From positions 1,902,001 to 1,966,000 of the forward strand of contig NZ_CP060404.1 of NCBI RefSeq assembly GCF_014295035.1: a stretch of 64,000 nt of DNA. The letters run 5' to 3'. The translations under genes were made by a program, and so were the position numbers. Below are positions 5,947-47,672 of this stretch, piece after piece. How positions within the stretch are numbered: the first letter of the stretch is position 1; every line of letters begins with the position of its first letter. Below the pieces are notes generated by a model that searched no databases, was not told where the DNA came from, and saw only the letters and a list, made by a program, of their open reading frames with translations. This DNA is from Streptomyces buecherae (lineage in GTDB: Bacteria; Actinomycetota; Actinomycetes; Streptomycetales; Streptomycetaceae).

Positions 5947-6612
5947 ATGCACATCGTCATCATGGGCTGCGGTCGGGTGGGGGCCGCGCTCGCCCAGAGA
6001 CTGGAGCGGCAGGGGCACACGGTCGCCGTCGTGGACCAGGACCCGACGGCCTTCCGGCGGCTCGGCGCGGGCTTCAGCGGGCGCCGGGTGACCGGCGTGG
6101 GCTTCGACCAGGACACGCTGCGCGAGGCGGGCATCGAGGAGGCCGGGGCGTTCGCCGCGGTCAGCAGCGGTGACAACTCCAACATCATCGCCGCCCGGGT
6201 GGCCCGCGAGATGTTCAGCGTCGAGAACGTCGCCGCCCGCATCTACGACCCCCGCCGCGCCGAGGTCTACCAGCGCCTCGGCATCCCCACCGTGGCCACC
6301 GTCCGCTGGACGGCCGACCAGATGCTGCGCCGGCTGCTGCCCTCGGGCGCGGAGACGCTGTGGCGCGACCCGAGCGGCGGCGTGCAGCTCGCTGAGGTGC
6401 ACACCTCGCCCGCGTGGGTGGGCCACAAGGTGAGCCGCCTCCAGGAGGAGACCGGGGTCCGGGTGGCCTTCCTCACCCGGTTGGGCGAGGCGATCCTGCC
6501 GACCTCGCAGACGGTGCTCCAGGAGGGCGACCTCGTCCACGTGATGATGCGCACCAACGAGGTCGAGACGGTCGAGGCGGCGTTCGCCAAGGGGCCGGAG
6601 GCCGGCTCGTGA
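5947..6612 (+). CDS. trkA: TrkA family potassium uptake regulatory protein (first copy)
   Basis: Cytoplasmic RCK-domain protein of 221 residues. It starts with the Rossmann nucleotide motif GCGRVGAALA, has a conserved acidic residue at the end of the second strand (VDQD), and carries a C-terminal TrkA-C segment (EGDLVHVMM). Such proteins gate Trk/Ktr potassium channels by binding NAD(H), ATP or c-di-AMP. No membrane channel gene is adjacent. A second, distinct trkA lies 100 bases downstream and the two probably share a transcript. A perfect 20-base palindrome at 6613-6632 directly follows the stop. Confidence 0.93.
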   Translation: MHIVIMGCGRVGAALAQRLERQGHTVAVVDQDPTAFRRLGAGFSGRRVTGVGFDQDTLREAGIEEAGAFAAVSSGDNSNIIAARVAREMFSVENVAARIYDPRRAEVYQRLGIPTVATVRWTADQMLRRLLPSGAETLWRDPSGGVQLAEVHTSPAWVGHKVSRLQEETGVRVAFLTRLGEAILPTSQTVLQEGDLVHVMMRTNEVETVEAAFAKGPEAGS

Positions 6613-6712: not shown

Positions 6713-7390
6713 ATGAGGGTCGCTATCGCCGGAGCGGGCGCCGTGGGGCGCTCCATCGCGGGGGAACTGCTGGAGAACGGGCACGAGGTGCTGCTCATCG
6801 ACAAGGCGCCCACCGCCATCTCGGTGGAGCGGGTGCCGCAGGCCGAGTGGCTGCTCGCCGACGCCTGTGAGATCACCTCGCTGGACGAGGCCGCGCTCCA
6901 GCGCTGCAACGTGGTCATCGCCGCCACCGGCGACGACAAGGTCAACCTGGTGGTGTCGCTGCTCGCCAAGACCGAGTACGGCGTGCCCCGGGTGGTGGCC
7001 CGGGTGAACAACCCGAAGAACGAGTGGCTGTTCACCGAGGCGTGGGGCGTCGACGTCGCCGTCTCCACGCCGCGCCTGATGTCGGCGCTGGTCGAGGAGG
7101 CCGTGAGCGTCGGCGACCTGGTGCGGCTGCTGCGCTTCAGCCACGGCGACGCCAACCTGGTGGAGCTGACGCTGCCGCCCGAGGCCGCGCTCGCGGGCAC
7201 CCGGGTCGGCGACGTGGCCTGGCCCGAGGACACGTCCCTGGTCACGATCATCCGCGGCACGCGGGTGCTCACGCCCAGCGGGGACGACGTCCTGGAGGCC
7301 GGCGACGAGCTGCTGTTCGTCGCGGCCCAGGCCCGCGAGGAGCAGCTTGAGGACCTGCTGTCGCTGCGCCGCGAGGACGCGGTGGACTAG
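6713..7390 (+). CDS. trkA: TrkA family potassium uptake regulatory protein (second copy)
   Basis: RCK-domain protein of 225 residues with an N-terminal Rossmann motif (GAGAVGRSIAGELLENGHEV) and C-terminal TrkA-C domain (LEAGDELLFVAA). It differs clearly from the upstream copy, consistent with a hetero-oligomeric pair such as CeoB/CeoC of mycobacteria. The ATG is preceded by AAGGAGG. A strong terminator follows at 7475-7523. Its channel partner is not in this window; the Kdp system 3-13 kb away is the other potassium system here. Confidence 0.93.
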   Translation: MRVAIAGAGAVGRSIAGELLENGHEVLLIDKAPTAISVERVPQAEWLLADACEITSLDEAALQRCNVVIAATGDDKVNLVVSLLAKTEYGVPRVVARVNNPKNEWLFTEAWGVDVAVSTPRLMSALVEEAVSVGDLVRLLRFSHGDANLVELTLPPEAALAGTRVGDVAWPEDTSLVTIIRGTRVLTPSGDDVLEAGDELLFVAAQAREEQLEDLLSLRREDAVD

Positions 7391-10995: not shown

Positions 10996-13686
10996 TCATG
11001 AGGTGACCTGGGCCGGGAGGTCGGGGGCGGCCGGCGGGCGGGCGGCGGCGGTGCTCAGGGTGAGGACCATCGTCATGCCGCCGCCCGGGGTGTCCTCGGC
11101 GGTCAGGGTGCCGCCCATCGCCTCGGCGAAGCCGCGCGCGACGGCGAGGCCGAGGCCCACGCCGGCGCCGCGCGGGACGTCGCCGTAGCGCTGGAAGGGC
11201 TCGAAGATGCGGTCCTTGGCGCTGTCGGGGACGCCGGGTCCGCGGTCGGCGACGCGCACCTCGACCCGGGTGCCCAGCGCGCTCGCCGCCACCAGGACGG
11301 GCTGGCCCGGCGGGCTGTACTTCACGGCGTTCTCGACGATGTTGGCGACGCTGCGCTCCAGGAGCCCCGGGTCGACGGCGACCATCGGCAACTCCTCGGG
11401 GACGTCCAGGGTGACGCTGCCCTCGGGGACGCCGCCGAGCGCCATCGGGACCACCTCGTCGAGGTCGATCTCGCGGATCAGCGGGGTGACGGTGCCGGTC
11501 TGCAGGCGCGACATGTCGAGCAGATTGCCCACGAGGTGGTCGAGCCGGTCGGCGCCGTCCTCGATGCCGGCCAGCAGCTCCGCCTCGTCCTCGTCCGACC
11601 AGGCGACGTCGTCCGAGCGCAGCGAGGTCACCGCGGCCTTGATCCCGGCCAGCGGGGTGCGCAGGTCGTGGCTGACGGCGGCGAGCAGCGCGGTGCGGAT
11701 GCGGTTGCCCTCGGCCAGCTCGCGCGCCTGCTCGGCCTCGCCCATCAGGCGCTGCCGGTCCAGGACGACGGCGGCCTGGGCGGCGAACGCGGCGAGCACG
11801 CGCCGGTCCTCGGCCGGCAGCACCCGGCCGTTGAGGGCCAGCGCCAGGTGGTCGCCCACGGGCATGTCCACGTCGGCGTCCTCGGGCCGCAGCGGCACGC
11901 GGGCGCCGGGGGCCGCGGCGCTCGCGGCCGGCGCGCCCTCCGGGGAGGCGGCCGGGCCCTCGGAGGAGGTGGCCGGGCCTTCGCGAGAGGCGGCCGGGCC
12001 CTCTCGGGTGGTGGCCGGCTCGCCGTCGGCGGTGGGCGCGGCCGGGGTGGCGGCGGCGCTGCCCGCGCAGGTCCACGGGGCGGTGTCGGACTCCCGCTCA
12101 AGAAGCGCCACCGACTCCATGCCGAAGGTCTCCCGCACCCGCTCCAGCAGGGCCTCCAGGCTGGTCTCCCCGCGCAGCACGCTGCCCGCGAGGTAGGACA
12201 GGATCTCGGACTCGGCCCGCAGCCTGGCCGCCTGGTGGGTGCGGCGGGCCGCCAGGTCCACCACGGAGGCCACCGCGACGGCCACCGCGAAGAAGATCAC
12301 GATGGCGACGAGGTTCTTCGGGTCCTGCACGGTCAGGGTGTGCTTGGGCGGCGTGAAGTAGAAGTTGAGCAGCATCGAGCCGACGGCCGCCGAGGCCAGC
12401 GCGGGCAGCAGGCCACCGAGCAGCGCGGCCAGCACCGTCAGGAACAGGAACAGCAGCACGTCGTTGGCGAGCCCCGGGCCGTCGTGCAGGGCCGTGAGCA
12501 GCAGGGTGAGCAGCGCCGGCCCGCCGACCCCGGTCAGCCAGCCCGCCAGGATGCGGGACCGGCCGAGCCGCGCGCCCCGGGCCAGCGGCAGCCCGCGGCC
12601 CTTGGCCACCTCGCTGTGGGTGACGATGTGTACGTCGAGGTCGGGCCCCGACTCCCGGGCCACGGTCGCGCCGACGCCGGGGCCGAAGACGTACTGCCAG
12701 GTCTTGCGGCGGCTGGAGCCGAGCACGATCTGGGTCGCGTTGACGCCGCGCGCGAACTCGAGGAGGGCGCTCGGGACGTCCTCGCCGATCACGTGGTGGA
12801 AGGTGCCGCCGAGGTCCTCGACCAGGGTGCGCTGGACGGCCAGTTCCTTGGGCGAGGCGGAGGTCAGCCCGTCGCTGCGGGCGATGTAGACGGCGAGCAC
12901 CTCGCTGCCCGAGCCCTTGGCCGCCATCCGGGACGCCCGGCGGATCAGCGTGCGGCCCTCGGGCCCGCCGGTCAGGCCCACCACGATGCGTTCGCGCGCC
13001 TGCCAGGTGGAGCGGATGCGGTGCTCGGAGCGGTACTGCTGGAGGTACTCGTCGACCCGGTCAGCGGTCCACAGCAGCGCCAGCTCGCGCAGCGCGGTCA
13101 GGTTCCCGGGGCGGAAGTAGTTGGACAGGGCCGCGTTGACCTTGTCGGGCGCGTAGATGTTGCCGTGCGCCATGCGGCGGCGCAGCGCCTGGGGCGACAT
13201 GTCGACCAGTTCTATCTGGTCGGCGCGGCGTACGACCTCGTCGGGCACCGTCTCCCGTTGCCGCACGCCCGTTATCGACTCCACCACGTCACCCAGCGAT
13301 TCCAGGTGCTGGATGTTGACGGCGGATACGACGTCGATGCCGGCCCGCAGCAACTCCTCGACGTCCTGCCACCGCTTGGCGTTGCGCGACCCTGGCACGT
13401 TGGTGTGCGCGAGTTCGTCGACCAGCGCGACGGCCGGCCGCCTGGCGAGCACGGCGTCCACGTCCATCTCGGTGAACGTGGCGTCCCGGTAGGTGAGCTC
13501 ACGACGGGGTACCGCCTCCAAGCCGTGCAGCATCACCTCGGTACGCGGCCGACCGTGGTCCTCGACGAAGCCCACCACGAGGTCCGTGCCGCGCTCGACC
13601 CGCCGGTGCCCCTCGGAGAGCATCGCGTACGTCTTGCCGACGCCGGGTGCCGCACCGAGGTAGATCCGAAGCTTGCCGCGTGCCAT
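10996..13686 (-). CDS. kdpD: Sensor histidine kinase KdpD
   Basis: Sensor kinase of about 896 residues. Order: KdpD domain with Walker A GAAPGVGKTYAML, a universal-stress-protein-like domain (RERIVVGLTGGPEGRTLIRR), four clustered membrane segments, a GAF-like region, HisKA with phospho-acceptor His in AVSHDLRTPLAGIK, and a HATPase domain (NIVENAVKYSPPG, DRGPGVP). The ATG at 13686 matches the family start MARGKLRIYLG, although its GAGG lies very close; a GTG at 13713 is an alternative. Unusual: the GAF-like region carries a tandem run of seven-residue units, EGPAASR-like, encoded by 21-base repeats (11945-12028). KdpD phosphorylates KdpE; the N-terminal domain is a c-di-AMP receptor in some Firmicutes. 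Confidence 0.95.
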   Translation of the reverse strand: MARGKLRIYLGAAPGVGKTYAMLSEGHRRVERGTDLVVGFVEDHGRPRTEVMLHGLEAVPRRELTYRDATFTEMDVDAVLARRPAVALVDELAHTNVPGSRNAKRWQDVEELLRAGIDVVSAVNIQHLESLGDVVESITGVRQRETVPDEVVRRADQIELVDMSPQALRRRMAHGNIYAPDKVNAALSNYFRPGNLTALRELALLWTADRVDEYLQQYRSEHRIRSTWQARERIVVGLTGGPEGRTLIRRASRMAAKGSGSEVLAVYIARSDGLTSASPKELAVQRTLVEDLGGTFHHVIGEDVPSALLEFARGVNATQIVLGSSRRKTWQYVFGPGVGATVARESGPDLDVHIVTHSEVAKGRGLPLARGARLGRSRILAGWLTGVGGPALLTLLLTALHDGPGLANDVLLFLFLTVLAALLGGLLPALASAAVGSMLLNFYFTPPKHTLTVQDPKNLVAIVIFFAVAVAVASVVDLAARRTHQAARLRAESEILSYLAGSVLRGETSLEALLERVRETFGMESVALLERESDTAPWTCAGSAAATPAAPTADGEPATTREGPAASREGPATSSEGPAASPEGAPAASAAAPGARVPLRPEDADVDMPVGDHLALALNGRVLPAEDRRVLAAFAAQAAVVLDRQRLMGEAEQARELAEGNRIRTALLAAVSHDLRTPLAGIKAAVTSLRSDDVAWSDEDEAELLAGIEDGADRLDHLVGNLLDMSRLQTGTVTPLIREIDLDEVVPMALGGVPEGSVTLDVPEELPMVAVDPGLLERSVANIVENAVKYSPPGQPVLVAASALGTRVEVRVADRGPGVPDSAKDRIFEPFQRYGDVPRGAGVGLGLAVARGFAEAMGGTLTAEDTPGGGMTMVLTLSTAAARPPAAPDLPAQVTS
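11945..12028. repeat. 21-bp tandem repeat inside kdpD
   Basis: Four consecutive 21-base units start at 11945, 11966, 11987 and 12008; the first three are nearly identical (GAGGCGGCCGGGCCCTCG-type) and the fourth is degenerate. They encode heptapeptides of the form EGPAASx in KdpD. Length polymorphism by slippage would stay in frame. Confidence 0.85.
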
Positions 13687-13901
13687 GTCCTCATTGTCTT
13701 TCGTGCCGCGCACCGTACGTGCGCTCTGTTGACTCTACGACCAGCGAATCGGACAAACGTCGCGGACATCGCCGCGCGGATTTGTCTTGACACGGCTCTG
13801 ACGCCGCCCCGCGCCGGACCCCACCCGCCCCGCCGTGCGGCGTCGCCCGTTGACTCGTAAACCACGCGACGGACCGGCCGCGCCCTGCGAACATCGCCCG
13901 T
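13687..13901. promoter_or_regulatory. Divergent kdpD / aac(2') promoter region
   Basis: This 215-base gap must hold promoters for kdpDE (leftward) and the acetyltransferase gene (rightward). GTTGAC at 13728-13733 matches the core of the CGTTGACGG repeats in front of the kdpFABC operon and is a candidate shared site. No unambiguous -10/-35 pair was recognised. Confidence 0.4.
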
Positions 13902-14435
13902 ATGGCAGACGTACGTGTGACACACACCTCGGGGCTGGACTCCGCCGCGTTGGCGGCCGTGCGGGCCCTGCTCGACGACGCCTTCGATGGCGACTTCGAC
14001 GACGCCGACTGGGACCACACGGTCGGTGGGATGCACGCCCTCCTGTGGGAGGGCAGCGAGTTGATCGCGCACGGCGCCGTGGTGCAGCGGCGTCTGCTGC
14101 ACGGCGGTCGGGCGCTGCGCGCCGGCTACGTGGAGGGCGTGGCGGTGCGGGCCGACCGGCGCGGGGTCGGCAAGGGGACGGCCGTGATGGCGGCCCTGGG
14201 TCCGGTGCTGCGCGGCGGCTACGAGGTGGGCGCCCTGTCCGCGGCCGACGGCGCCGACGTGTTCTACCAGCGCCTGGGCTGGCAGCGGTGGCAGGGCCGC
14301 ACGTCGGTGCTGGCGCCCACCGGCGTGCTGCGCACCGAGGAGGACGACGACAGCACCTTCGTCCTCCCCCTCGGGGTGCCGCTTGACCTGGCCGGCGAGC
14401 TGACCTGCGACTGGCGCGAAGGCGACGTGTGGTGA
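13902..14435 (+). CDS. aac(2'): Aminoglycoside 2'-N-acetyltransferase, AAC(2')
   Basis: GNAT-fold enzyme of 177 residues, about the full length of the AAC(2') family. Motifs characteristic of mycobacterial AAC(2')-I enzymes are present in order: WDHTVGGMHALLW, IAHGAVVQRRLL, LRAGYVEGVAVRADRRG (acetyl-CoA site), TSVLAPTG, and the C-terminal CDWREGDVW. It would transfer acetyl to the 2'-amino group of aminoglycosides; in mycobacteria such enzymes are chromosomal and may have other physiological substrates. It stands alone, divergent from kdpD, with no antibiotic-biosynthesis genes nearby. Confidence 0.9.
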   Translation: MADVRVTHTSGLDSAALAAVRALLDDAFDGDFDDADWDHTVGGMHALLWEGSELIAHGAVVQRRLLHGGRALRAGYVEGVAVRADRRGVGKGTAVMAALGPVLRGGYEVGALSAADGADVFYQRLGWQRWQGRTSVLAPTGVLRTEEDDDSTFVLPLGVPLDLAGELTCDWREGDVW

Positions 14436-14470
14436 CCGGGCGCCCGTGACCGCTCTCCGGGCCGCCGACC

Positions 14471-14510
14471 GCCGGGCGGGCCCACGTACGGGGGTCGTGG
14501 GCCGCCCGGC
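14471..14510. terminator. Terminator between aac(2') and ABC ATPase gene
   Basis: GCCGGGCGGGCCCACG (14471-14486) pairs with CGTGGGCCGCCCGGC (14496-14510) apart from one bulged base. It lies between converging genes. Confidence 0.7.
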
Positions 14511-14601
14511 TCCCGGGCGCGCGGCCCCGGGGAGCCGAGCGGGCCTGGGGGTCAGGCGGGGCCGGGCCGGTCAGGCAGCCAGACGGTCAGACGGCCAGGT
14601 G

Positions 14602-15315
14602 TCAGCCGGTCTGGCTGCGGTCCTCGGTGATGTGCCCGTCGCTCAGCTCCAGGACCCGGTCGGCGAGGCCGAGCAGGTTGGCGTCGTGCGTGGCGACCAG
14701 GGCGGTGACGTCCTCGCTGCGCACCACCGCGCGCAGCAGCTCCATCACCGCGAGCCCGGTCTCCGCGTCCAACTGTCCGGTCGGCTCGTCCGCGATCAAC
14801 AGCGCCGGTCGGTTGGCCAGCGCGCGGGCGATGGCCACCCGCTGCTGCTGCCCGCCGGACAGTTCGCCGGGCCGCTGCTCCGCGTGGTCGGCCAGGCCCA
14901 CCAGGGACAGCAGCAGGGCGACCCGCTCCTCCCGCTCGGCCGCCGGCGCCTTGCGCAGCCGCATCGGGACGCCGACGTTCTCGGCGGCGCTCAGGATCGG
15001 GATCAGGCCGAAGGACTGGAAGACGAAGCCGATCCGGTCTCGCCGCAACTGGAGCAGACCGCTCTCGCCAAGGCCGACGACATCGGTGTCGTCCACGAGG
15101 ATCTCGCCCGCGTCGGGGGTGTCGAGCCCGCCGATGAGGTTGAGCAGCGTGGTCTTCCCGGAGCCGGACCGGCCCTTGAGCGCGACGAGTTCGCCGCGCG
15201 GCACGTCGAAGGAGACCCCGCGCAACGCGTGCACGGCGGCCGGGCCGCTGCCGTAGGTCCGCCGCAGGTCCCGCACCCGCACCATGTCCGCCCGCTGTAG
15301 CGTCCGCTCGCTCAT
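14602..15315 (-). CDS. ABC transporter ATP-binding protein, LolD/MacB type
   Basis: ATPase subunit of 237 residues: Walker A GRSGSGKTT, Q-loop FVFQSFGLIP, signature LSGGQQQRVAIARAL, Walker B LLIADEPTG and switch His in ATHD. LolD/MacB-type ATPases normally pair with an FtsX-like permease, but no permease is next to it, so it is an orphan here. The DEPTGQLDAETG block is typical of the type. It faces aac(2') convergently and lies downstream of the kdp operon terminator. Confidence 0.9.
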   Translation of the reverse strand: MSERTLQRADMVRVRDLRRTYGSGPAAVHALRGVSFDVPRGELVALKGRSGSGKTTLLNLIGGLDTPDAGEILVDDTDVVGLGESGLLQLRRDRIGFVFQSFGLIPILSAAENVGVPMRLRKAPAAEREERVALLLSLVGLADHAEQRPGELSGGQQQRVAIARALANRPALLIADEPTGQLDAETGLAVMELLRAVVRSEDVTALVATHDANLLGLADRVLELSDGHITEDRSQTG

Positions 15316-15481
15316 CGCCCGCCGCTCCCCTCCCGGCCCCCGGCCGGCCGTAACCGATCACGCCGACGCTACGGTACGCGCCTGGTGGCCGGAGTCCAGG
15401 CCCCGTGCGCCACCCGCCCGCCGCGCGGGGCCGCCCGTCACGGCCGCGCGAGGACGCCGGGGGCGCGGCGGCGGGCGGGCG

Positions 15482-15519
15482 GGGCGTACGCGACCGGTCT
15501 CGCCGTCCCGCGTACGCCC
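15482..15519 (-). terminator. Terminator of the kdp operon
   Basis: An 11-base perfect inverted repeat (GGGCGTACGCG / CGCGTACGCCC) with a 16-base loop, about 30 bases beyond the kdpC stop codon on the minus strand. Confidence 0.6.
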
Positions 15520-15548
15520 GGCCCCGCGCCCCGCCAGCTCGCCCCCGG

Positions 15549-16208
15549 TCAGTCGCCCCGCTCCTCCGCCGCCAGCCGTCGCACGGCCAGGTTCAGCTTC
15601 AACACGTTGACGTGCGGCTCCCCCAGGAAGCCGGCCAGGCGGCCGTCGGTGTGCCGCTCGACCAGGCGTTGTACGGCCTGCCGGGACAGGCCGTGCTCCC
15701 TGGCCACCCGGCTCACCTGGAGGTCCGCGTAGGCCGGTGAGATGTGCGGGTCGACGCCGGAGGCGGAGGCCGTGAGCGCGTCTACCGGCACGTCGCGCCG
15801 CGGGACGCCGTTGAACGTGGCGATCGCGGCGCGGCGGGCGATGACCTGCTCCTTGAGCACCTTGCTGTCGGCGGCGAGGTTGGAGGCGCCGGAGACGGTG
15901 AGGGAGTAGCGGGTGTTGTAGACGTTCTCGCCGGCCGCCGACGGGCGGGGCTGGAACCACCTGGGGTCGGGCAGCGGGTTGCCGTCCTTGTCCTTGGCGT
16001 CGAGCGTGAAGCTCTGGCCGATCAGCTCGGAGCCGACGACCTTCCCGTTCTCCTTGATCTTCGAGCCGTCGGCCTGGTCGGGGAAGAGGGCCTGGGCGAT
16101 GCCGGTGACCGCCAGCGGATAGAGCACGCCGCACACCAGGGTCAGCACCAGCAGGGCCCGCAGCCCCGCCGTCGCCAGGCGGGTCATGCCGCGGAGGGAT
16201 GAGTTCAT
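15549..16208 (-). CDS. kdpC: Potassium-transporting ATPase subunit KdpC
   Basis: Single-span subunit of 219 residues from an ATG. It has one N-terminal membrane helix (LRALLVLTLVCGVLYPLAVTGIAQALFP), then the conserved GSELIGQSF, PRWFQPRPSAAG and SGVDPHISPAYADLQVSRVA motifs. KdpC stabilises the KdpFABC complex and raises the affinity of KdpB for ATP. It starts five bases after the kdpB stop. Confidence 0.95.
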   Translation of the reverse strand: MNSSLRGMTRLATAGLRALLVLTLVCGVLYPLAVTGIAQALFPDQADGSKIKENGKVVGSELIGQSFTLDAKDKDGNPLPDPRWFQPRPSAAGENVYNTRYSLTVSGASNLAADSKVLKEQVIARRAAIATFNGVPRRDVPVDALTASASGVDPHISPAYADLQVSRVAREHGLSRQAVQRLVERHTDGRLAGFLGEPHVNVLKLNLAVRRLAAEERGD

Positions 16209-16213
16209 GAGTG

Positions 16214-18387
<2,174 letters not shown>

Positions 18388-18391
<4 letters not shown>

Positions 18392-20073
18392 GCCAGGCCC
18401 TCCGCCAGCGGTCCGAGGGCGAGCGCGGGGAAGAAGGTGAGCCCGGTGATGATCAGGATCGCGCCCACCAGGAGCCCGGCGAACAGCGGCTGCTCGGTGC
18501 GCAGGGTGCCCGCCGTCTTCGGTACGGGCTGCTGCTCGGCCAGCGAGCCGGCCAGGGCGAGGACGAAGACCATCGGCAGGAAGCGGCCGAGCAGCATGGC
18601 CAGGCCGATCGTGGTGTTGTACCACTGCGTGTTGGCGTTCAGCCCGGCGAAGGCCGAGCCGTTGTTGTTGGCGCCGGAGGTGAAGGCGTACAGGACCTCG
18701 GAGAAACCGTGCGCGCCGCTGCCGTGCACCGAGTTACCGGCGGTGTTGAGGATCGAGTCCGGCGGCGTGGCCAGGGCCAGCGACGCGGCGGTGAAGCCGA
18801 GCACGAGGGTGGGGGTGACCAGGATGTAGCAGGCGGCGAACTTGATCTCACGGGTGCCGATCTTCTTGCCCAGGTACTCGGGCGTACGGCCGACCATCAG
18901 GCCCGCGATGAACACGGCGATGACGGCCATGATCAGCATGCCGTACAGGCCGGAGCCCACGCCGCCGGGGGCGATCTCGCCCAGCATCATGCCGAGCAGG
19001 TCGAGACCGCCGCCGAGGCCGGTGTTGGAGGAGTGGAAGGAGTTGACCGCGCCGGTGGAGGTCAGCGTGGTGGTGGCGGAGAAGAGGGCGGAGCCCGCGA
19101 CGCCGAACCGGGTCTCCTTGCCCTCCATGGCGCCGCCCGCCTCCTGGAGCGCCGCGCCGCCGTGGTGGAATTCGGTCCACAGCATCAGCGCGGAGAAGCC
19201 GAGCCAGATCACGCCCATCGTGCCGAGGATGGCGTAGCCCTGCCGGGTGCTGCCGACCATGCGGCCGAAGGTGCGGGTCAGCGAGACGGGGATGACCAGG
19301 ATCAGGAAGATCTCGAAGAGGTTGGACAGGCCGTTGGGGTTCTCGAAGGGGTGCGCGGAGTTGGCGTTGAAGTAGCCGCCGCCGTTGGTTCCGAGCTCCT
19401 TGATCACCTCCTGGGACGCGACCGCTCCGCCGTTCGTCTGCTGGACGCCGCCGTCGAACTGGCCGATCTCGTGGATGCCGGCGAAGTTCTGGATGACGCC
19501 GCAGGCGACCAGCACGAGCGCGCCGATGACGGCCATCGGGATCAGCACCCGGACCAGGCCGCGCACCAGGTCGGCCCAGAAGTTGCCGAGTTCGCCGGTG
19601 CGGGACCTGGCGAAGCCGCGGACCAGCGCGATGGCCACGGCGATGCCGACGGCGGCCGAGAGGAAGTTCTGCACCGCGAGCCCGCCGGTCTGCACGACGT
19701 GGCCCATCGACTGCTCGCCCGAGTAGGACTGCCAGTTGGTGTTGGCCACGAAGGAGGCGGCGGTGTTGAACGCCTGGTGCGGCGATATGGAGGTGAAGCC
19801 GTACGACAGCGGCAGGCTGCCCTGGGCGCGCTGGAGCAGGTAGAGGAAGAGGACGCCGGCCAGCGAGAAGGCGAGGACCGAGCGCAGGTAGGCGGGCCAG
19901 CGCAGTTGCACGGACGGGTTGGCACCGATGCAGCGGTAGATCCACTTCTCCACGCGGAGGTGCCGGGTGGAGCTGTAGACGGCGGCCAGGTAGTCGCCCA
20001 GAGGCCGGTGCACCAGGGCCAGCGCCCCGACGAGGGCGGCGAGCTGGAGCACTCCCGCGAGGACAGGACTCAT
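18388..20073 (-). CDS. kdpA: Potassium-transporting ATPase subunit KdpA
   Basis: Potassium-binding channel-like subunit of 561 residues with about ten membrane helices, related to the Trk/KcsA channel superfamily. Selectivity-filter-like segments are visible, including [28 protein letters not shown] and [13 protein letters not shown]. It translocates potassium in the KdpFABC complex. It is preceded by kdpF after seven bases and overlaps kdpB. Confidence 0.96.
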
Positions 20074-40647: not shown

Positions 40648-43600
40648 TCAGTACGCGGGGAGGTGGCGCGGGCCGAGGTCCGTACGGACCGGGGGCGGGG
40701 CCAGCCGCAGGGACGCGCCCAGCACGGACAGCCCGTGCGGGGCCACGACCACCGGCTCCAGGTGCACGGCCACCACCTCGGGGTGGTCGCCGACCAGCCG
40801 GGAGACGCGCAGCAGCAGTTCCTCCAGGGCGGCGGTGTCCACCGGTCGCGAGCCGCGCCAGCCGAACAGTAGCGGCGCGGTGCGCACCGACCTGATCAGC
40901 TCGGCGACGTCACGGTCGGTGGCCGGTATGAGCCGGTGGGCGGTGTCGCCGAGCAGTTCGGAGGGGGCACCGGCAAGGCCGAAGGAGAGCACGGCTCCCG
41001 CGGCGGGGTCGATGGCGGCTCGGACCACCGTGTCCACGCCGCGCGGGGCCATCCGCTGGACGACCAGGCGCAGCTCGTCGGGGCCGCCGAGCAGACTGGT
41101 CAACTCGGCATAGGCCCGGCGCAGTTCCCGTTCGCCGCCGAGGTCGAGCCGGAAGGCGCCGAGATCGGCGCGGTGGCGCAGGTGGGGGGCGGTGGGCTTG
41201 AGCGCCACCGGGTAGCCGAGGCGGGCGGCGGCCCGCGTCGCGCTGTCGGGGTCCGGCGCGGGCAGGGCGGGCAGCACGCTGATGCCGTAGCGGGCCAGCA
41301 GGCGCTGGGTGTCCGGCGCGGAGAGCGCGAAGCTGCGCGCCGGCTGGGAGGCGCGCCCCCGCTCCCCGGCGGGCCGGGCGACCCGCGCGGTGTCGGGGGC
41401 GGCGGGTCCGGTGGGGTGGACGGGCTGCTGGGGCGCTCCGGCGGGCGGCGGGGGCGCGGCCCCCGCCCGGGCGGGAGGCGCCTCAGGGGCCGGGAGCGCG
41501 ACCGGGGCCGGAGGGGTGGTGGGGGGCGGAGGGGCAGTAGGGGGCGCCGGCGCGGCCGGGGACGGGGGCGTGCTCGGGGACGGGGGCGTGCTCGGGGGCG
41601 GGGGCGGGGCCTGCTCGGCGTCCTCGTGGGTGTGCGCGGCGAGCAGTACGTCGATGTCGGCCCCGGCGCCCGCCTCGTCGATGTCGTCGTACTCGGGCAC
41701 CCGGCCTGGCTCGGCCGCCTGGCGCCGCCAGTGCGCGTACCGCACGGCCTCGGCCAGCGCGCGCACCGCGCGCTCGGCCGCCGGATACGCCGGCACGCGG
41801 CACTCGGCCGCCGGGCCGTCCGACGCCGCGGGCGGCTCGGCCACGCGCTCGTCCCCGGCGGCGGGGGCGCCCGCGGGGCCTCCGGCCGGGGGCTCGCCGG
41901 TCGCGAACGCGTGGTCCCGACCCGCGTCCGGGGGGCCGGGCTGGGCCAGCGCGGCGGCCAGGCCCGGGATCTCCAGATGGACCACGACCACCGGCTTCGC
42001 CACGCCGCTCGCGGCGGCCGACCGCCGGATCGCCCGCGCCAGCTCCGTGGCGGACTCCTCGTCGACCGAGGGGATGGCCGTGACGACGACGGCGTCGCAC
42101 AGGTCGTCGGCCAGGGCCCGGTCGAGGGCCGCGCGGAAGTCGGCGGGCTGGGCCGCCGTGGTCAGGTCGAGCGGGGGCAGCGGGCGCAGGCCCTCGGTCA
42201 GGCACGCGTCGTAGCTGATCAGGCCGAGCGACTCCGAGTTGCCGAGGATCGCCACCCGGGGGCCGCGCGGCAGGGGTTGCGCGGCCAGGAACAGGCCCAC
42301 GTCGGCCAGCTCGGTGACCGTGTCCACGCGGATGACGCCCGCCTGTCGGAACAGCGCGGAGACCGTGGCGTCGGGGATGCGCGTGGTGGGCACCGCGTGC
42401 CCGGGGGGCTCGCTGCCGCTGTGCCGGGCGCCCTTGACGACCACGACCGGCTTGAGGGCCGCTGTGCGCTTGGCGAGCCGGGTGAACTTGCGGGGGTTGC
42501 CGATGGACTCCAGGTACAGCAGCGCGACGTGGGTGTCGGGGTCGTCGTGCCAGTACTGGAGCAGGTCGTTGCCGGAGACGTCGGCCCGGTTGCCGGCCGA
42601 GACGAAGGTGGAGATGCCGAAGAGGCCGGAGCCGCGCCGGTGCAGCCCCGACAGCAGGGCGATGCCGATCGCGCCGGACTGGGTGAACAGGCCCAGGTTG
42701 CCGGCCGGCGGCATCTGGGGCGACAGGGAGGCGTTCATCCGCACGCCGTCGGCCGTGTTGATGATCCCCAGGGCGCCGGGGCCGATCAGCCGCATTCCGT
42801 ACGACCTGACCTGCCGGACCAGCTCCCGCTGCCGCTCCAGGCCCGCCGGCCCGCTCTCGGCGTACCCAGAGGAGACCACCACCAGGCCCTGCACGCCACG
42901 CTCGCCACAGTCGGCGACGACGGCGGGCACCTGCTCGGCCGGGACCGCGATGACGGCCAGGTCCACCGGGTCCTCGATGTCGTGGAGCGAGCGGTAGGCG
43001 GCGACGCCCGGCGGTTCGGCGGCGTCCTCGGCGGGCGGCGCCTGGCCGGGCGGCCCGGCCGGCTCCGCGTCGGGACGGGGCAGCGGGCCCGCGCCGGCGC
43101 GCTCCGGCGCCGCAGCGCCCGCGCCGAGTGCGCCCGGTGCGCTCGCCCCCGGCGGTGGCGCGGCGTCGGCGGCGCGTCGGGCCTGGGCCAGGTCGGCGCC
43201 CGTCAGCCACGAGCGCCCGGGAGCGAAGGCGTGGTTGACCGCGCACACCCGGCCCGTGTAGCCGCCGCTGAGCAGATTCACGAGGACCGCCCGGCCGGCG
43301 CCGCCGGGCCGGCGGCTGGCCCCGACGACCGCCACCGAGCCGGGCGCGAGCAGCCGCTGCACGGAGCGGGCCTCGGCGCGCTGCTCCCGGGCGCGCATGA
43401 CGGCCAGCGACCGGGCCGTGGGTTCGAGGTCGAATTCCAGGCGGACGACGCCGTCCTCGAAGCTGCGCTGCTGGGTGTAGCCCGCGTCCGTGAACACCTT
43501 GATCATCTTGGTGTTGGCGGGGAGCACCTCGGCGGCGAAGCGGCGGATGGCGCGCTCCCTGGCGACGGCGGCGATGTGTTCGAGCAGGGCGGAGGCGACG

Positions 43601-43974
43601 CCGCGCCCCTGGTGGGCGTCCTGCACGAGGAAGGCGACCTCGGCCTCGTCCGCCGGCGCCGACGAGGGGCGACCGCGCTCGTCGATGCGGTCGTACCGCA
43701 CCGTGGCGATGAACTCGTCCCCGACCGTCGCGGCCAGGCCGACCCGGTTCACGTAGTCGTGGTGGGTGAAGCGGTGCACATCGCGGTCGGAGAGCCGGGG
43801 ATAGGGGGCGAAGAAACGGTAGTACTTGGACTCGTCCGAGACCCGCTCGTAGAAGTCGACCAGGCGCTGGCCGTCGTCGGGGGTGATGGGGCGGATCTGG
43901 GCGGTGCCGCCGTCACGGAGCACCACGTCCGCTTCCCAGTGCGTCGGATAGGCGTGCTCGGGCGGCGTTTCCAT
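40648..43974 (-). CDS. GNAT acetyltransferase fused to ADP-forming acyl-CoA synthetase (Pat type)
   Basis: Large protein of 1108 residues. Order: GNAT domain (~20-190, acetyl-CoA motif VQDAHQGRGVASALLEH), CoA-binding Rossmann domain (SVAVVGASRRPGGAGRAVLVNLL), CoA-ligase domains (GLFTQSGAIGIALLSGLHRRG, AILGNSESLGLI), then a Pro/Ala-rich linker of more than 100 residues, and a C-terminal ATP-grasp domain (LLARYGISVLP, YPVALKPTAPHLRHRADLGAFRL, shortened). Similar fusions are protein lysine acetyltransferases that control acyl-CoA synthetases. The catalytic His of active ADP-forming synthetases is not evident, so the synthetase half is probably a sensor. ATG at 43974. Confidence 0.9.
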   Translation of the reverse strand: METPPEHAYPTHWEADVVLRDGGTAQIRPITPDDGQRLVDFYERVSDESKYYRFFAPYPRLSDRDVHRFTHHDYVNRVGLAATVGDEFIATVRYDRIDERGRPSSAPADEAEVAFLVQDAHQGRGVASALLEHIAAVARERAIRRFAAEVLPANTKMIKVFTDAGYTQQRSFEDGVVRLEFDLEPTARSLAVMRAREQRAEARSVQRLLAPGSVAVVGASRRPGGAGRAVLVNLLSGGYTGRVCAVNHAFAPGRSWLTGADLAQARRAADAAPPPGASAPGALGAGAAAPERAGAGPLPRPDAEPAGPPGQAPPAEDAAEPPGVAAYRSLHDIEDPVDLAVIAVPAEQVPAVVADCGERGVQGLVVVSSGYAESGPAGLERQRELVRQVRSYGMRLIGPGALGIINTADGVRMNASLSPQMPPAGNLGLFTQSGAIGIALLSGLHRRGSGLFGISTFVSAGNRADVSGNDLLQYWHDDPDTHVALLYLESIGNPRKFTRLAKRTAALKPVVVVKGARHSGSEPPGHAVPTTRIPDATVSALFRQAGVIRVDTVTELADVGLFLAAQPLPRGPRVAILGNSESLGLISYDACLTEGLRPLPPLDLTTAAQPADFRAALDRALADDLCDAVVVTAIPSVDEESATELARAIRRSAAASGVAKPVVVVHLEIPGLAAALAQPGPPDAGRDHAFATGEPPAGGPAGAPAAGDERVAEPPAASDGPAAECRVPAYPAAERAVRALAEAVRYAHWRRQAAEPGRVPEYDDIDEAGAGADIDVLLAAHTHEDAEQAPPPPPSTPPSPSTPPSPAAPAPPTAPPPPTTPPAPVALPAPEAPPARAGAAPPPPAGAPQQPVHPTGPAAPDTARVARPAGERGRASQPARSFALSAPDTQRLLARYGISVLPALPAPDPDSATRAAARLGYPVALKPTAPHLRHRADLGAFRLDLGGERELRRAYAELTSLLGGPDELRLVVQRMAPRGVDTVVRAAIDPAAGAVLSFGLAGAPSELLGDTAHRLIPATDRDVAELIRSVRTAPLLFGWRGSRPVDTAALEELLLRVSRLVGDHPEVVAVHLEPVVVAPHGLSVLGASLRLAPPPVRTDLGPRHLPAY
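41557..41592. repeat. 18-bp tandem repeat in Pro-rich linker of the Pat-type gene
   Basis: CGGGGACGGGGGCGTGCT occurs twice in tandem (41557-41574, 41575-41592), followed by a degenerate copy. It encodes STPPSP units. Confidence 0.85.
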
Positions 43975-44120: not shown

Positions 44121-44402
44121 ATGGTTGAGCGCCGCGTCACCGTCGGCTGGGCAGAGGGCCTGCACGCTCGCCCCGCGTCCATCTTCGTCCGCGCCGCGAC
44201 GGCCTCCGGCGTCCCCGTGACGATCGCCAAGCCGGACGGCACCCCGGTCAACGCCGCCTCGATGCTCGCCGTGCTCGGGCTCGGCGCGCAGGGCGGCGAG
44301 GAGATCGTGCTGGCCTCGGAGGCCGACGGCGCCGAGGTCGCGCTCGACCGGCTGGCCAAGCTCGTCGCCGAGGGGCTTGAGGAGCTCCCGGAGACGGTCT
44401 GA
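44121..44402 (+). CDS. ptsH: Phosphocarrier protein HPr
   Basis: PTS phosphocarrier of 93 residues. Phosphorylatable His15 is in GLHARPAS and the regulatory-site region is VNAASMLAVLGLGAQGG with Ser47. It passes phosphate from enzyme I to sugar-specific EII proteins. Enzyme I is not adjacent, as usual in Streptomyces. ATG with a moderate upstream site; a terminator follows. Confidence 0.95.
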   Translation: MVERRVTVGWAEGLHARPASIFVRAATASGVPVTIAKPDGTPVNAASMLAVLGLGAQGGEEIVLASEADGAEVALDRLAKLVAEGLEELPETV

Positions 44403-44461: not shown

Positions 44462-44634
44462 GTCGTTTCCACTCCGGACAGGGGCGGGGACCGCCGTGCG
44501 GGCGCCGTGGCGCGAGACCGCGCGCCGGCTCCCGCTGGCCGCGCGCGGGCCGAGACGCGCCGAAGGCCCCGCGCACAGGGCGGGGCCTTCGGTGTGTGAC
44601 GTGCGGGGGCCGGGCGGGGTGGCCCGGTGTCGCC

Positions 44635-45540
44635 TCAGATGTTGACGCCGTGGGAGCGCAGGTAGGCGACGGGGTTGATGTCCGAGCCGTACTCGGGCGA
44701 CGTGCGGGCCTCGAAGTGCAGGTGCGCGCCGAAGGAGTTGCCCGTGTTGCCGGCGAGGCCGATCTGCTGGCCGGGGGCGACGCTCTGGCCGACCGAGACG
44801 GAGATCGAGTCGAGGTGCCCGTACTGGGTGTAGGTGCCGTCGTTCATCTTGATCACGACGTTGTTGCCGTACGCGCCGCCCCAGCCGGCCTCGACGATGG
44901 TGCCGGCGCCCACGGCGCGCACCGAGGTGCCGGTGCTGGCGTGGAAGTCGACGCCGGTGTGGCTGCCGGAGGACCAGGCGCCACCGGACGCCTGGTACTG
45001 CGTCGAGACGTACGAGCCCGCGACCGGCAGGACGTAGGAGCCCGCCGCCGGACGCTCGGCGGTGCGCGACGCGCGCGTGTCGACGACCTCGCTGGCGCGG
45101 GCCTGCTCGGTCTCGCGCTCGGCGGCGGCCCGTGCCTCGGCCGCCTTCTTCGCGGCGGCCTTCTTCTTCGCGGCCTCGGCGGCGGCCTTGCGCTTGGCCT
45201 CCTCCGCCTTCTTCTTCATCTCGGCGGCGTGCTCGGCGGCCTGCTGACGCGCCTCTTCCTCGGCCTGCTGCTCGGCCGCGGCCTGCTCGGCGGCGGAGTA
45301 CTGGGCGTCGGCCTGAGCGCCGATCTTGTCCGCGATGTCCTCGTTCAGGGTCGCGGCCTGACGCAGGCCGGTGTCCTGGAGCTCGGGGACGCCGTCGGCG
45401 CCCGGGGCGGCCATCGCGGGGGCGGCGATGCCGGCGACGACGCCGGTGGCCGCGAGGGTGGCCATGCCCGCCGCGTTCGCGCTGGTACGGACAAAGCGGC
45501 TGGGGCGACGGTGCCGCCCAGTGGCACGGGTGAACGCCAT
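44635..45540 (-). CDS. Secreted M23 family peptidase (cell-wall endopeptidase)
   Basis: Protein of 301 residues. A signal peptide (basic start, hydrophobic core MATLAATGVVAGIAAP, cleavage near AMA-AP) leads to a long Ala/Lys/Glu coiled coil (~60-145) and an M23 domain with zinc ligands in HTGVDFHA and HLHFEA. It should cut peptidoglycan cross-bridges; the coiled coil may regulate it as in NlpD/EnvC-like proteins. Its 5' leader is a c-di-AMP riboswitch, which fits control of wall remodelling during germination and growth. ATG with AAAGGAG upstream. Confidence 0.94.
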   Translation of the reverse strand: MAFTRATGRHRRPSRFVRTSANAAGMATLAATGVVAGIAAPAMAAPGADGVPELQDTGLRQAATLNEDIADKIGAQADAQYSAAEQAAAEQQAEEEARQQAAEHAAEMKKKAEEAKRKAAAEAAKKKAAAKKAAEARAAAERETEQARASEVVDTRASRTAERPAAGSYVLPVAGSYVSTQYQASGGAWSSGSHTGVDFHASTGTSVRAVGAGTIVEAGWGGAYGNNVVIKMNDGTYTQYGHLDSISVSVGQSVAPGQQIGLAGNTGNSFGAHLHFEARTSPEYGSDINPVAYLRSHGVNI

Positions 45541-45565
45541 GGGGAGGCGTACTCCTTTCCTTCCT

Positions 45566-45712
45566 TCTCGCCTACCGGGTTAGCTGACGGGTTCGGAGCA
45601 GGAAGGTCTCCTACGGTCACCACGCCTCTCGCGAGGATGGCGGCCGATTCACCCCAGGGGACTTGGGTCCCCGGCTCCCCTGGCTCGCGCCATAAGGGAC
45701 TCGGCGATGGTT
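45566..45712 (-). promoter_or_regulatory. c-di-AMP (ydaO/yuaA) riboswitch
   Basis: Minus-strand leader of the M23 gene with the conserved blocks of the ydaO class: GGGGAGCC, a variable hairpin (GGGGACC-type stem), GGGGTGAATCGG, and near the 3' end CCGAACCCGTCAGCTAACC (45578-45596) followed by GGTAGGCG. In Streptomyces this class controls rpf and other wall-hydrolase genes and turns expression down when c-di-AMP binds. No long T-tract terminator is visible; GGAG-TACGC-CTCC around the ribosome site could be part of the switch. Confidence 0.9.
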
Positions 45713-45858
45713 GCCCGGTGCCACGGGTGTGGCGAAGGTGTGACGGACAACGGGGCTGACGCTAAGCGGGACGTCTTTTGATCGGCAAACAGAACCGGCC
45801 ATTTGTTGCGCACGCCACACGGCAGACAGGCAGCCTCTCCCGCAAAACAGACAAACCG

Positions 45859-45894
45859 AGAGGCCCTGGCATCCCACTTGACACCAGGGCCTCT
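45859..45894 (-). terminator. Rho-independent-type terminator of the M16 operon
   Basis: Perfect 11-base stem AGAGGCCCTGG/CCAGGGCCTCT. On the minus strand it is followed by CGGTTTGTCTGTTTTG, a T-rich tail rare in this sequence. It lies ~350 bases beyond the second M16 gene and just upstream of the M23 riboswitch. Confidence 0.75.
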
Positions 45895-46244
45895 TAACGG
45901 CTCATCAGTAACAGGAGCCCCTGCCGCCGCCCCGGACACCCGGGTCAAACCGGGCGCCCACGCCGCTCTCTGGGGCACGGTCAGGTACCGGGCGGCGCCC
46001 CGCTACGTCCTGGCGTACGCCACCCGCTCCACCGCTCGCGTGCTCGCCCGCACCTCCCGGCATCTGGGGACCGCGGCAGCCGCCCCGGCCGCGAGGACCG
46101 CTCGACGCGCCTCCCGGCGCTCCGGGCGCTGACGGCACGGGCAGCGCGGGCGGCACGGCGGCACGGGCGGCGCAGGGCCGGGCCCGAGCCGGACGGCACC
46201 TGACGGCTCGCCAGCCCGGCTCGGGCCACCGGGGTGGCCCGCCG
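45895..46244. other. Long 3' region of the M16 operon
   Basis: About 350 bases between the M16 stop and the terminator. A plus-strand frame at about 45990-46132 has coding-like third-position GC but no start codon nearby. Nothing certain is encoded. Confidence 0.4.
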
Positions 46245-47672
46245 CTAGCCGCTCACCACCCGTACGTCCCCGATGCCCAGCGCCTTCACCGGCTCGGCGA
46301 TCACCGAGGCGTCGCCGACCAGCACGGTCACCAGCCGGTCGGTGGGGAAGGCGGCGACGGCCGCGGCCGTCGCCTCGACCGTGCCGGTCTCCGCGAGCCG
46401 CCGGTAGAGGTGGGCCTGGAAGTCGTCCGGCAGGTGCTGCTCGACCTGGTCCGCGAGGGTGCCCGCGACCGAGGCGGCCGTCTCGTACTTCAGCGGGGCG
46501 ATCCCCACCAGGTTCTGCACGGCCACGTCGCGCTCGTCGTCCGTGAGCCCGTCGGCGGCCAGCGTGCGCAGCACCTTCCACGCGTCCTCGAGGGCCGGCC
46601 CCGTCACCTCGGTGGCCACCGAGCCGCTGATGGCCAGGAGGGAGAGGCCGGTGCCCTCCGGCGTGGAGCGCAGCACCTGGGCGAAGGCCCGCACGCCGTA
46701 CGTGTAGCCCTTCTCCTCGCGCAGCACCCGGTCGAGCCGGGAGGTGAGGGTGCCGCCCAGGCAGTAGGTGCCGAGCGTCTGCGCGGGCCAGACCTGGTCG
46801 TGCCGGTCGGCGCCGACCCGGCCGATGAGCAGTTGGGTCTGCACCGCGCCCGGCCGGTCCACGATGACGACCCGGCCGGTGTCGTCGGCGGTGACGGTGG
46901 GCACCGGGCGGGGCGCGGCCGTGTCGCCGCTCCAGGCGCCCAGCGTGTCGGCCAGCGCCTGGTCGAGGTCGACGCCGGTGAGGTCGCCGACGACGACGGC
47001 GGTGGCCGTGGCGGGGCGCACGTGGGCCGCGTAGAAGGCGCGCACGGCGGCGGCGTCCACGCGCGCGACCGACTCCTCGGTGCCCTGGCGCGGCCGGGAC
47101 ATCCGGGAGTCGGCCGGGAAGAGCTCCCTGGAGAGCGTCATCGCGGCCCGCCGGGCGGGGTTGGCCAGCTCGTGCGGGATCTCGTCGAGCCGGTTGCGCA
47201 CCAGCCGCTCGACCTCGCCCTCCGGGAAGGCTGGGGCGCGCAGGGCGTCGGCGAGCAGCCCGAGCGCCTTCGTCAGCCGGGAGGCGGGGACCTCCAGGGA
47301 GACGCGCACGCCGGGGTGGTCCGCGTACGCGTCCAGGGTGGCGCCGCAGCGCTCCAACTCGGCGGCGAACTCCTCGGCCGAGTGCCGGTCGGTGCCCTCC
47401 GACAGCGCCCGCGCCATGATGGTCGCCACGCCTTCGAGCCCCTGCGGCTCGGCTTCCAGCGGTGCGGCGAGGCTGACCTCGACCGCGACGACCTGCTGGC
47501 CGGGGCGGTGGCAGCGCAGCACGGTCAGGCCGTTGGGCAACTGGCCGCGCTCGGGTGCGGGGAAGGCCCACGGCCTGGCCTGGCCCGGCTGCGGCTGGGG
47601 GTGGAACTGCATGCTCGTCACGGTGTCCGTCGCGTTCGTCTGCGTCGCGGTCGTGGTTGCGGCGTCGCTCAC
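46245..47672 (-). CDS. M16 family peptidase-like protein, non-catalytic partner
   Basis: Protein of 475 residues with the M16 fold but no HxxEH zinc motif: the region that should hold it reads ATIMARALSEGTDRHSAEEFAAEL. It retains the C-terminal R/Y substrate motif in EEKGYTYGVRAF, as the regulatory subunit of heterodimeric M16B enzymes does. Its GTG overlaps the stop of the catalytic gene (GTGA), so the two are made together. Confidence 0.9.
   Translation of the reverse strand: MSDAATTTATQTNATDTVTSMQFHPQPQPGQARPWAFPAPERGQLPNGLTVLRCHRPGQQVVAVEVSLAAPLEAEPQGLEGVATIMARALSEGTDRHSAEEFAAELERCGATLDAYADHPGVRVSLEVPASRLTKALGLLADALRAPAFPEGEVERLVRNRLDEIPHELANPARRAAMTLSRELFPADSRMSRPRQGTEESVARVDAAAVRAFYAAHVRPATATAVVVGDLTGVDLDQALADTLGAWSGDTAAPRPVPTVTADDTGRVVIVDRPGAVQTQLLIGRVGADRHDQVWPAQTLGTYCLGGTLTSRLDRVLREEKGYTYGVRAFAQVLRSTPEGTGLSLLAISGSVATEVTGPALEDAWKVLRTLAADGLTDDERDVAVQNLVGIAPLKYETAASVAGTLADQVEQHLPDDFQAHLYRRLAETGTVEATAAAVAAFPTDRLVTVLVGDASVIAEPVKALGIGDVRVVSG

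Follow-up and report, generated by a model that had tools for sequence, protein, structure and literature searches.

The 64-kb stretch of Streptomyces DNA analyzed here, to which we refer throughout as the window, encodes on its minus strand a 301-aa Peptidase_M23 protein that is presumably a secreted cell-wall peptidase and whose closest named orthologue is found in Streptomyces philanthi (93% identity). Two other open reading frames of the window are, by eye, what we take to be a GNAT/acyl-CoA-synthetase fusion (40648 to 43974, minus strand) and a PTS HPr protein (44121 to 44402, plus strand). When the whole window was searched against Rfam with cmscan, a single match above any gathering score was recovered, namely, RF00379 (c-di-AMP, ydaO/yuaA), which spans positions 45716 to 45554 on the minus strand and model positions 1 to 134 of 134 with a score of 85.8 bits (E = 1.4 × 10−18; gathering score, 38 bits) and lies directly before the Peptidase_M23 gene. 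A preliminary description of this DNA had placed a c-di-AMP riboswitch with the conserved ydaO blocks before the M23 peptidase and had named a covariance-model search as a way to check it; that search has now been run and supports the claim at full length, and in the Rfam alignment P1 and the core blocks GGGGUGAAU, GUAGG, and CCGAACCCGUCAGCUAACC are all intact. The span originally given, 45566 to 45712, corresponds to the aptamer minus its 3′ tail, and the letters of the ribosome site fall just outside it. Membership of the ydaO/yuaA c-di-AMP class is thus confirmed at the level of sequence, and binding of the ligand by the window copy is predicted. The aptamer and its surroundings are arranged as follows.

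45859 to 45894, minus strand: 15-bp inverted repeat, a terminator-like stem in the gap that separates the M16 peptidase gene from the riboswitch (scan)
45554 to 45716, minus strand: c-di-AMP riboswitch aptamer, full-length RF00379 match (cmscan, 85.8 bits)
45703 to 45706, minus strand: 5′ strand of P1, CGCC (Rfam alignment)
45595 to 45611, minus strand: final aptamer hairpin, GGAG-ACCUUCCUG-CUCC (Rfam alignment and sequence)
45569 to 45572, minus strand: 3′ strand of P1, GGCG (Rfam alignment)
44635 to 45540, minus strand: regulated gene for the 301-aa Peptidase_M23 protein, with its ATG at 45540 (PF01551, 106.8 bits)

The AGGC of P1 and the ATG are just 29 nt apart. A consensus scan of positions 44500 to 46300 detected no stem with a T-rich tail between the aptamer and the ATG on the minus strand, and the hit that it returned at 45541 to 45560 lies on the opposite strand. 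The lack of a T-tract terminator in this interval, which the preliminary description had pointed out, is hence borne out, and the arrangement of the Bacillus type, in which an intrinsic terminator with a U-tract follows the aptamer, is not seen on the minus strand. Upstream of the riboswitch, the terminator-like stem at 45859 to 45894 points to a possible separate promoter for the M23 gene, located between this stem and the aptamer; a sigma-70 consensus scan found no promoter there.

The 8.4-Mb single-contig genome contains six RF00379 matches, five of them above the cut-off, and all six riboswitch-linked genes encode cell-wall-hydrolase domains: the M23 protein of the window, a second M23 protein, a transglycosylase-LysM protein that we read as RpfA-like (leader L003), a transglycosylase-LysM-M23 protein, and two NlpC/P60 proteins. 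The gene behind leader L001 is of the M23 type. One leader of this genome, L006 (5310895 to 5311084), is a sub-threshold match of 34.1 bits before an NlpC/P60 gene and has a large loop insert, yet its tail and start site are conserved. In a draw of Streptomycetaceae, at least one RF00379 match was present in 61 of 61 genomes, and in a draw across the phylum, where stricter filters lose weak matches, 30 of 149 genomes had one. The aptamer core precedes the orthologous gene in 35 of 35 Streptomyces loci (L007 to L041), in 34 of them as the exact 19-base core and in L015 as a one-base variant; the other 45 of the 80 loci (L042 to L086) have no exact core and lie outside this set. For comparison, leaders were divided into the window class (long tail, ATG), a second class (long tail, mostly GTG), and a short-tail class. 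L050 and L067 entered the later counts through a looser regular expression, seven loci (L110, L113 to L115, L179, L182, and L193) were missed by the regular expression, and L220 gave a spurious second hit. Counts were made on distinct sequences, several loci being repeated, and the leaders are related by descent, such that the counts are not independent. The 164 background genes were taken from 20 stretches of the same genome with a crude start-site caller, and 88 of the 164 start with GTG.

From the final aptamer hairpin to the second codon, we recognize the following elements.

45600 to 45606, minus strand: first pseudoknot strand, loop CCUUCCU, complementary to the tail (permutation test)
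45559 to 45565, minus strand: second pseudoknot strand, tail AGGAAGG, 3 nt past P1 (permutation test)
45552 to 45558, minus strand: Shine-Dalgarno (SD) tract AAAGGAG, whose spacing is kept in long-tail leaders
45543 to 45555, minus strand: hairpin GGAG-TACGC-CTCC of the preliminary description, with its letters present but not conserved in the gene family
45546 to 45549, minus strand: CGCC, spacer arm of the start-site hairpin, a conserved island that pairs with the start-codon G and codon 2
45535 to 45538, minus strand: GGCG, the start-codon G and codon 2, 3′ arm of the same hairpin (conservation; compensatory change in the NlpC paralogue)

The loop and tail strands of the window, CCUUCCU and AGGAAGG, are fully complementary over 7 bp. 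Across 82 distinct leaders, the pairing of each loop with its own tail averaged 16.8 versus 14.5 for swapped partners, and 0 of 2,000 permutations were as good, in a test where L006, L199, and L200 were paired with the wrong loop. Versions that are changed yet still paired are CCUUCCG with CGGAAGG, CUUCUUCC with GGAAGAAG, and CCUCUC with GAGAGG. The pseudoknot is a known part of the aptamer: the available text on the crystallized ydaO construct, in which its letters are printed, speaks of a well-predicted pseudoknot (PMC5393176), and by our reading of those letters the construct shows an equivalent loop-tail complementarity. What stands out is its position. The anti-SD match AAGGAG starts 1 nt after the pseudoknot strand, and a 1-nt gap between the pseudoknot end and the SD recurs in 79 of the 80 distinct leaders with a long tail (L188, L202, and L253 are unscored for this spacing). 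Among short-tail leaders, 47 of 59 have a pseudoknot strand that runs into the SD, as do 18 of 22 other leaders; some assignments in these counts are doubtful, and part of the overlap is expected because purines are favored in the SD search as well as in the pseudoknot strand. Overlap of the predicted strand with the SD is seen in three leaders of the genome under study, L003 (Rpf-like), L004 (Rpf-M23), and L005 (NlpC), whose layout is shorter than that of the window's leader. A ribosome site next to or within the aptamer pairing, combined with the lack of a canonical terminator, is among the marks of riboswitches of the RSnlpC type (see below), and both are found here.

Beyond the SD, the CGCC of the spacer can pair with the GGCG formed by the start-codon G and codon 2. 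In the aligned leaders, AAAGGAG, CGCC, and TGGCGT stand as fixed islands between variable bases. A 4-bp match of the spacer to the start G and codon 2 occurs in 86 of 122 distinct leaders versus 12 of 164 background genes, and GCG is the second codon in 98 of the 122 versus 4 of the 164; the 122 leave out eleven leaders with no SD call and include L040, whose start is misassigned. If the spacer four-mer of each leader is chosen by number of pairs instead of by contiguous run, all four bases pair in 23 of 40 window-class, 26 of 28 second-class, and 31 of 39 short-tail leaders (L188 being left out of these class counts), and the remaining leaders pair at three bases. Further evidence comes from the NlpC paralogue, for which 394 genomes were searched, 170 with and 224 without a match. 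By hand count of 150 rows among the matches listed, the base before GCC and the base after TTGGC are C and G in 117, U and G in 16, U and A in 17, and C and A in none. A GCA codon, which is rare in Streptomyces, thus always faces U in these rows (17/17). The patterns used to search the NlpC and M23 families themselves fix GCC and TGGC. The series forms a compensatory path from C-G through U·G to U-A.

This compensatory evidence derives from the NlpC paralogue and not from the window's own family, where the spacer reads AGCC rather than CGCC in 132 of 150 rows among the matches listed (hand count), and the fourth pair is therefore lost, leaving an inner start-site helix of 3 bp. The best predicted fold of the AGCC class joins GGAY of the SD to the codon 2 G and the UUC of codon 3 in three of five leaders, and an equivalent SD pairing appears in four of five strings of a second fold set; in G559, GAAU stands opposite AUUC, fitting a double change, in a fold that ranks second best there. 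Over 41 distinct leaders, the base after GGA covaries with the base before GCC (G with C in 17, C or U with A in 18), with exceptions of C or U with C in 2 (L027 and L118) and other states in 4, and this joint change may represent one ancient event. In terms of predicted stability, the start regions of the window class have the same median minimum free energy as the background (−7.5 for both; P = 0.11), while greater stability is predicted for the CGCC subclass (median, −10.5), the second class (−9.1; P = 0.00078), and short-tail leaders (−9.3; P = 0.00025).

To approximate the bound aptamer, we compared folds of the tail, starting at the 3′ strand of P1, in the free state with folds in which the P1 and pseudoknot strands were barred from other pairing (masked), a method that cannot represent the pseudoknot itself and only bars its strands. 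With 24 nt of the gene included, masking lowers access to the SD in 30 of 45 leaders of the window class and raises it in 12; the corresponding figures for the second class are 26 and 6 of 37. Masking at the same place in the background genes lowers it in 50 of 164 and raises it in 76. The direction is the same with 15 and 36 nt of the gene in the long-tail classes. An OFF switch on translation fits these results, since with masking the SD becomes less accessible in the majority of long-tail leaders, an effect that the background genes do not share. The window's own tail displays a clear fall in SD access at 24 nt and none that is clear at 30 or 36 nt, and at 12, 15, 18, and 60 nt the first two SD bases are already largely paired, whether masked or free. 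When the whole leader is folded, both states show the start hairpin and SD access falls only partly, with GGAG unpaired at 0.67 to 0.76 in the free state and at 0.42, 0.38, 0.99, and 0.56 in bound-like folds.

The preliminary description had hinted at a ribosome-site switch of another form, in which GGAG (45555 to 45552) and CTCC (45546 to 45543) flank TACGC (45551 to 45547) on the minus strand. These letters are indeed present, and the pairing and that of the CGCC arm exclude each other because they overlap by one base. That GGAG-UACGC-CUCC is the main sequestering element, with pairing of P1 GGCG to spacer CGCC as the open state, nevertheless appears improbable to us. Folds of the window's tail with 24 nt of the gene do switch in this manner, from P1 GGCG with CGCC at 0.91 unmasked to GGAG with CUCC as the leading pairing at 0.58 masked, a similar trend appears in a second fold run, and CUCC recurs in NlpC-type leaders, 91 of 150 of which have GGAG followed by CTCC (hand count among the matches listed). 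With 12, 15, 18, 30, 36, or 60 nt of the gene, however, the GGAG-CUCC pairing never exceeds 0.24, masked or unmasked, and stays at or below 0.08 when masked, and the overlapping CGCC-GGCG pairing prevails in the majority of folds of this tail. Among distinct leaders, the SD-complementary stretch is found in just 5 of 40 in the window class, 2 of 28 in the second class, and 6 of 39 in the short-tail class; genus-wide, a pattern search of 246 genomes (152 matched, 94 without a match) gave GGAG with CTCC in 3 of 150 rows among the matches listed (hand count). Being rare in leaders of these classes and leading at one length only, the hairpin does not count as conserved in the leader of this gene, and we set it lower as a conserved switch, although it may play a part in the RNA of the window itself. 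Ribosome-site control, which the hairpin had been proposed to effect, is still what we judge the likelier mode; it is this particular means that fares poorly.

The P1 GGCG-spacer CGCC anti-sequestor was also set lower. In the window it fits, with a value of 0.91 at 24 nt and at most 0.11 at the six other lengths. Five leaders (L112, L125, L144, L152, and L171) have a changed P1 and keep the start-site CGCC and GGCG, six further AGCG leaders carry other arms, and UGCC/GGCA leaders retain the P1 GGCG. The start-site pair thus tracks the changes better than the anti-sequestor does, its arms persisting despite changes in P1; four anti-sequestor pairs are still possible in 24 of 40 distinct leaders of the window class.

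Taking these observations together, we favor the reading, to which we assign a probability of roughly 0.6, that the element is a c-di-AMP riboswitch acting most likely as an OFF switch on translation of the M23 cell-wall peptidase. Under this reading, binding of c-di-AMP would let P1 and the CCUUCCU-AGGAAGG pseudoknot form, and the latter would put the purine tract upstream of the SD into a helix that ends one base before AAGGAG. The bound state would also withdraw the 3′ strand of P1 from the competition for the spacer, and the freed spacer would then close the start site, mainly through CGCC and the GGCG of the start G and codon 2, drawing in bases of the SD. At low c-di-AMP, P1 and the pseudoknot would loosen, and the long purine tract would be open to the 30S subunit. 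Aptamer and start site would presumably be coupled in this way in the RNA of the window as well.

Several published systems bear on this reading. The nlpC (cg2402) riboswitch of Corynebacterium glutamicum, RSnlpC, is described as translational on the basis of reporter and RT-qPCR data, and the same work proposes that CTCC forms a pseudoknot with the ribosome-site GGAG (PMC9960051, in the text available). Like the window's element, RSnlpC is actinobacterial, precedes a cell-wall peptidase, and has no canonical terminator. It differs in that control of translation was measured there, whereas we infer it here, and in that the proposed pairing involves GGAG itself, whereas the window's pseudoknot sits just upstream of GGAG. 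For hydrolases of Streptomyces coelicolor, an accessible passage states that the riboswitch seems to block the ribosome-binding site by a stem-loop, citing Haiser 2009 and Block 2010 (PMC8079986). The excerpted literature counts seven riboswitch-bearing hydrolases in S. coelicolor and six in Streptomyces venezuelae (PMC10117811), and six are listed for S. venezuelae in a further source (PMC11481543, likewise in part); these are of the same genus and the same kind of target as the six RF00379 matches here. In the kdp riboswitch of Bacillus thuringiensis, as described in the available part of the report, a canonical hairpin with a U-tract serves as the terminator (PMC6488665). The window shares with the ydaO/yuaA class the full-length match, P1, the core blocks, and the loop-tail pseudoknot, but no counterpart of that terminator was found in its leader. 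Both c-di-AMP riboswitches of hydrolases and the translational mode are thus already published in the literature as far as it was accessible; in the same partial literature, with the likeliest sources lying outside the search, we found no description of the fixed pseudoknot-SD spacing or of the compensatory start hairpin.

Three further explanations were weighed against the favored one. The start-site pairing could be a by-product of G+C richness and shared descent of the leaders, with the aptamer as the sole functional part. Consistent with this, the members are related, the majority of the 122 distinct leaders have Ala as codon 2, and the stability of the window's start region is nothing unusual, being equaled or surpassed by 43 of 164 background genes. 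Against it, CGCC and GGCG stay fixed amid varying neighbor bases and GCA is restricted to positions opposite U in the listed NlpC rows, and we regard this explanation as somewhat unlikely. A little less probable still, in our estimate, is that c-di-AMP causes premature termination of transcription through something other than a canonical terminator, as for S. coelicolor rpfA, whose leader is reported, in the text available, to undergo premature termination with transcripts five-fold up in a disA mutant (PMC10117811). Terminated rpfA transcripts dependent on c-di-AMP were also obtained in vitro with Escherichia coli RNA polymerase, according to a citation in the available part of PMC9960051. 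The window copy differs from that case in preceding an M23 gene and in having a longer tail. Against termination, the tail of the RpfA-like leader L003 differs from the window's tail, no stem with a T-tract lies between the aptamer and the ATG on the minus strand, and in C. glutamicum, by the portion of the account at hand, transcript levels did not track c-di-AMP (PMC9960051). Finally, a degenerate riboswitch that no longer binds c-di-AMP is very hard to reconcile with a score of 85.8 bits, intact blocks, and a core kept in 35 of 35 orthologous loci.

Returning to the translational OFF switch, we tentatively extend it, as a possibility somewhat short of an even chance, to a form of c-di-AMP riboswitch in Actinobacteria that dispenses with a separate expression platform. 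In such leaders, the 3′ strand of the pseudoknot would itself be the SD or abut it at a fixed spacing, and a weakly stable start hairpin, maintained through compensatory changes, would make translation depend on landing of the ribosome there. If this is true, c-di-AMP would directly shut off a group of cell-wall hydrolases, their ribosome sites being docked into the aptamers. The accounts published for Streptomyces hydrolase riboswitches differ, in the parts accessible, as to whether transcription or translation is controlled, and the fixed spacing and the compensatory start hairpin offer specific targets for point mutations that bear on this question.

The remarks in the preliminary description on TrkA and KdpD also hold, in that domain matches locate both in the window. 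KdpD proteins can be targets of c-di-AMP; the one here (10996 to 13713, minus strand) has five Pfam domains, including a Usp-family stretch, and belongs to a kdp cluster with an E1-E2 ATPase and KdpA (10996 to 20073, minus strand). TrkA is represented by two adjacent TrkA_N/TrkA_C proteins (5947 to 6612 and 6713 to 7390, plus strand), which are candidate c-di-AMP binders via RCK_C-type domains; with regard to RCK_C, CpeA is named as a c-di-AMP-related protein in the available text of PMC10117811. These genes lie about 32 to 40 kb from the riboswitch, and nothing in this analysis ties them to it. In another genome (G055, C107), two c-di-AMP riboswitches (L150 and L153) occur about 1.5 kb apart on one strand, each with a short-tail leader and a TTG start.
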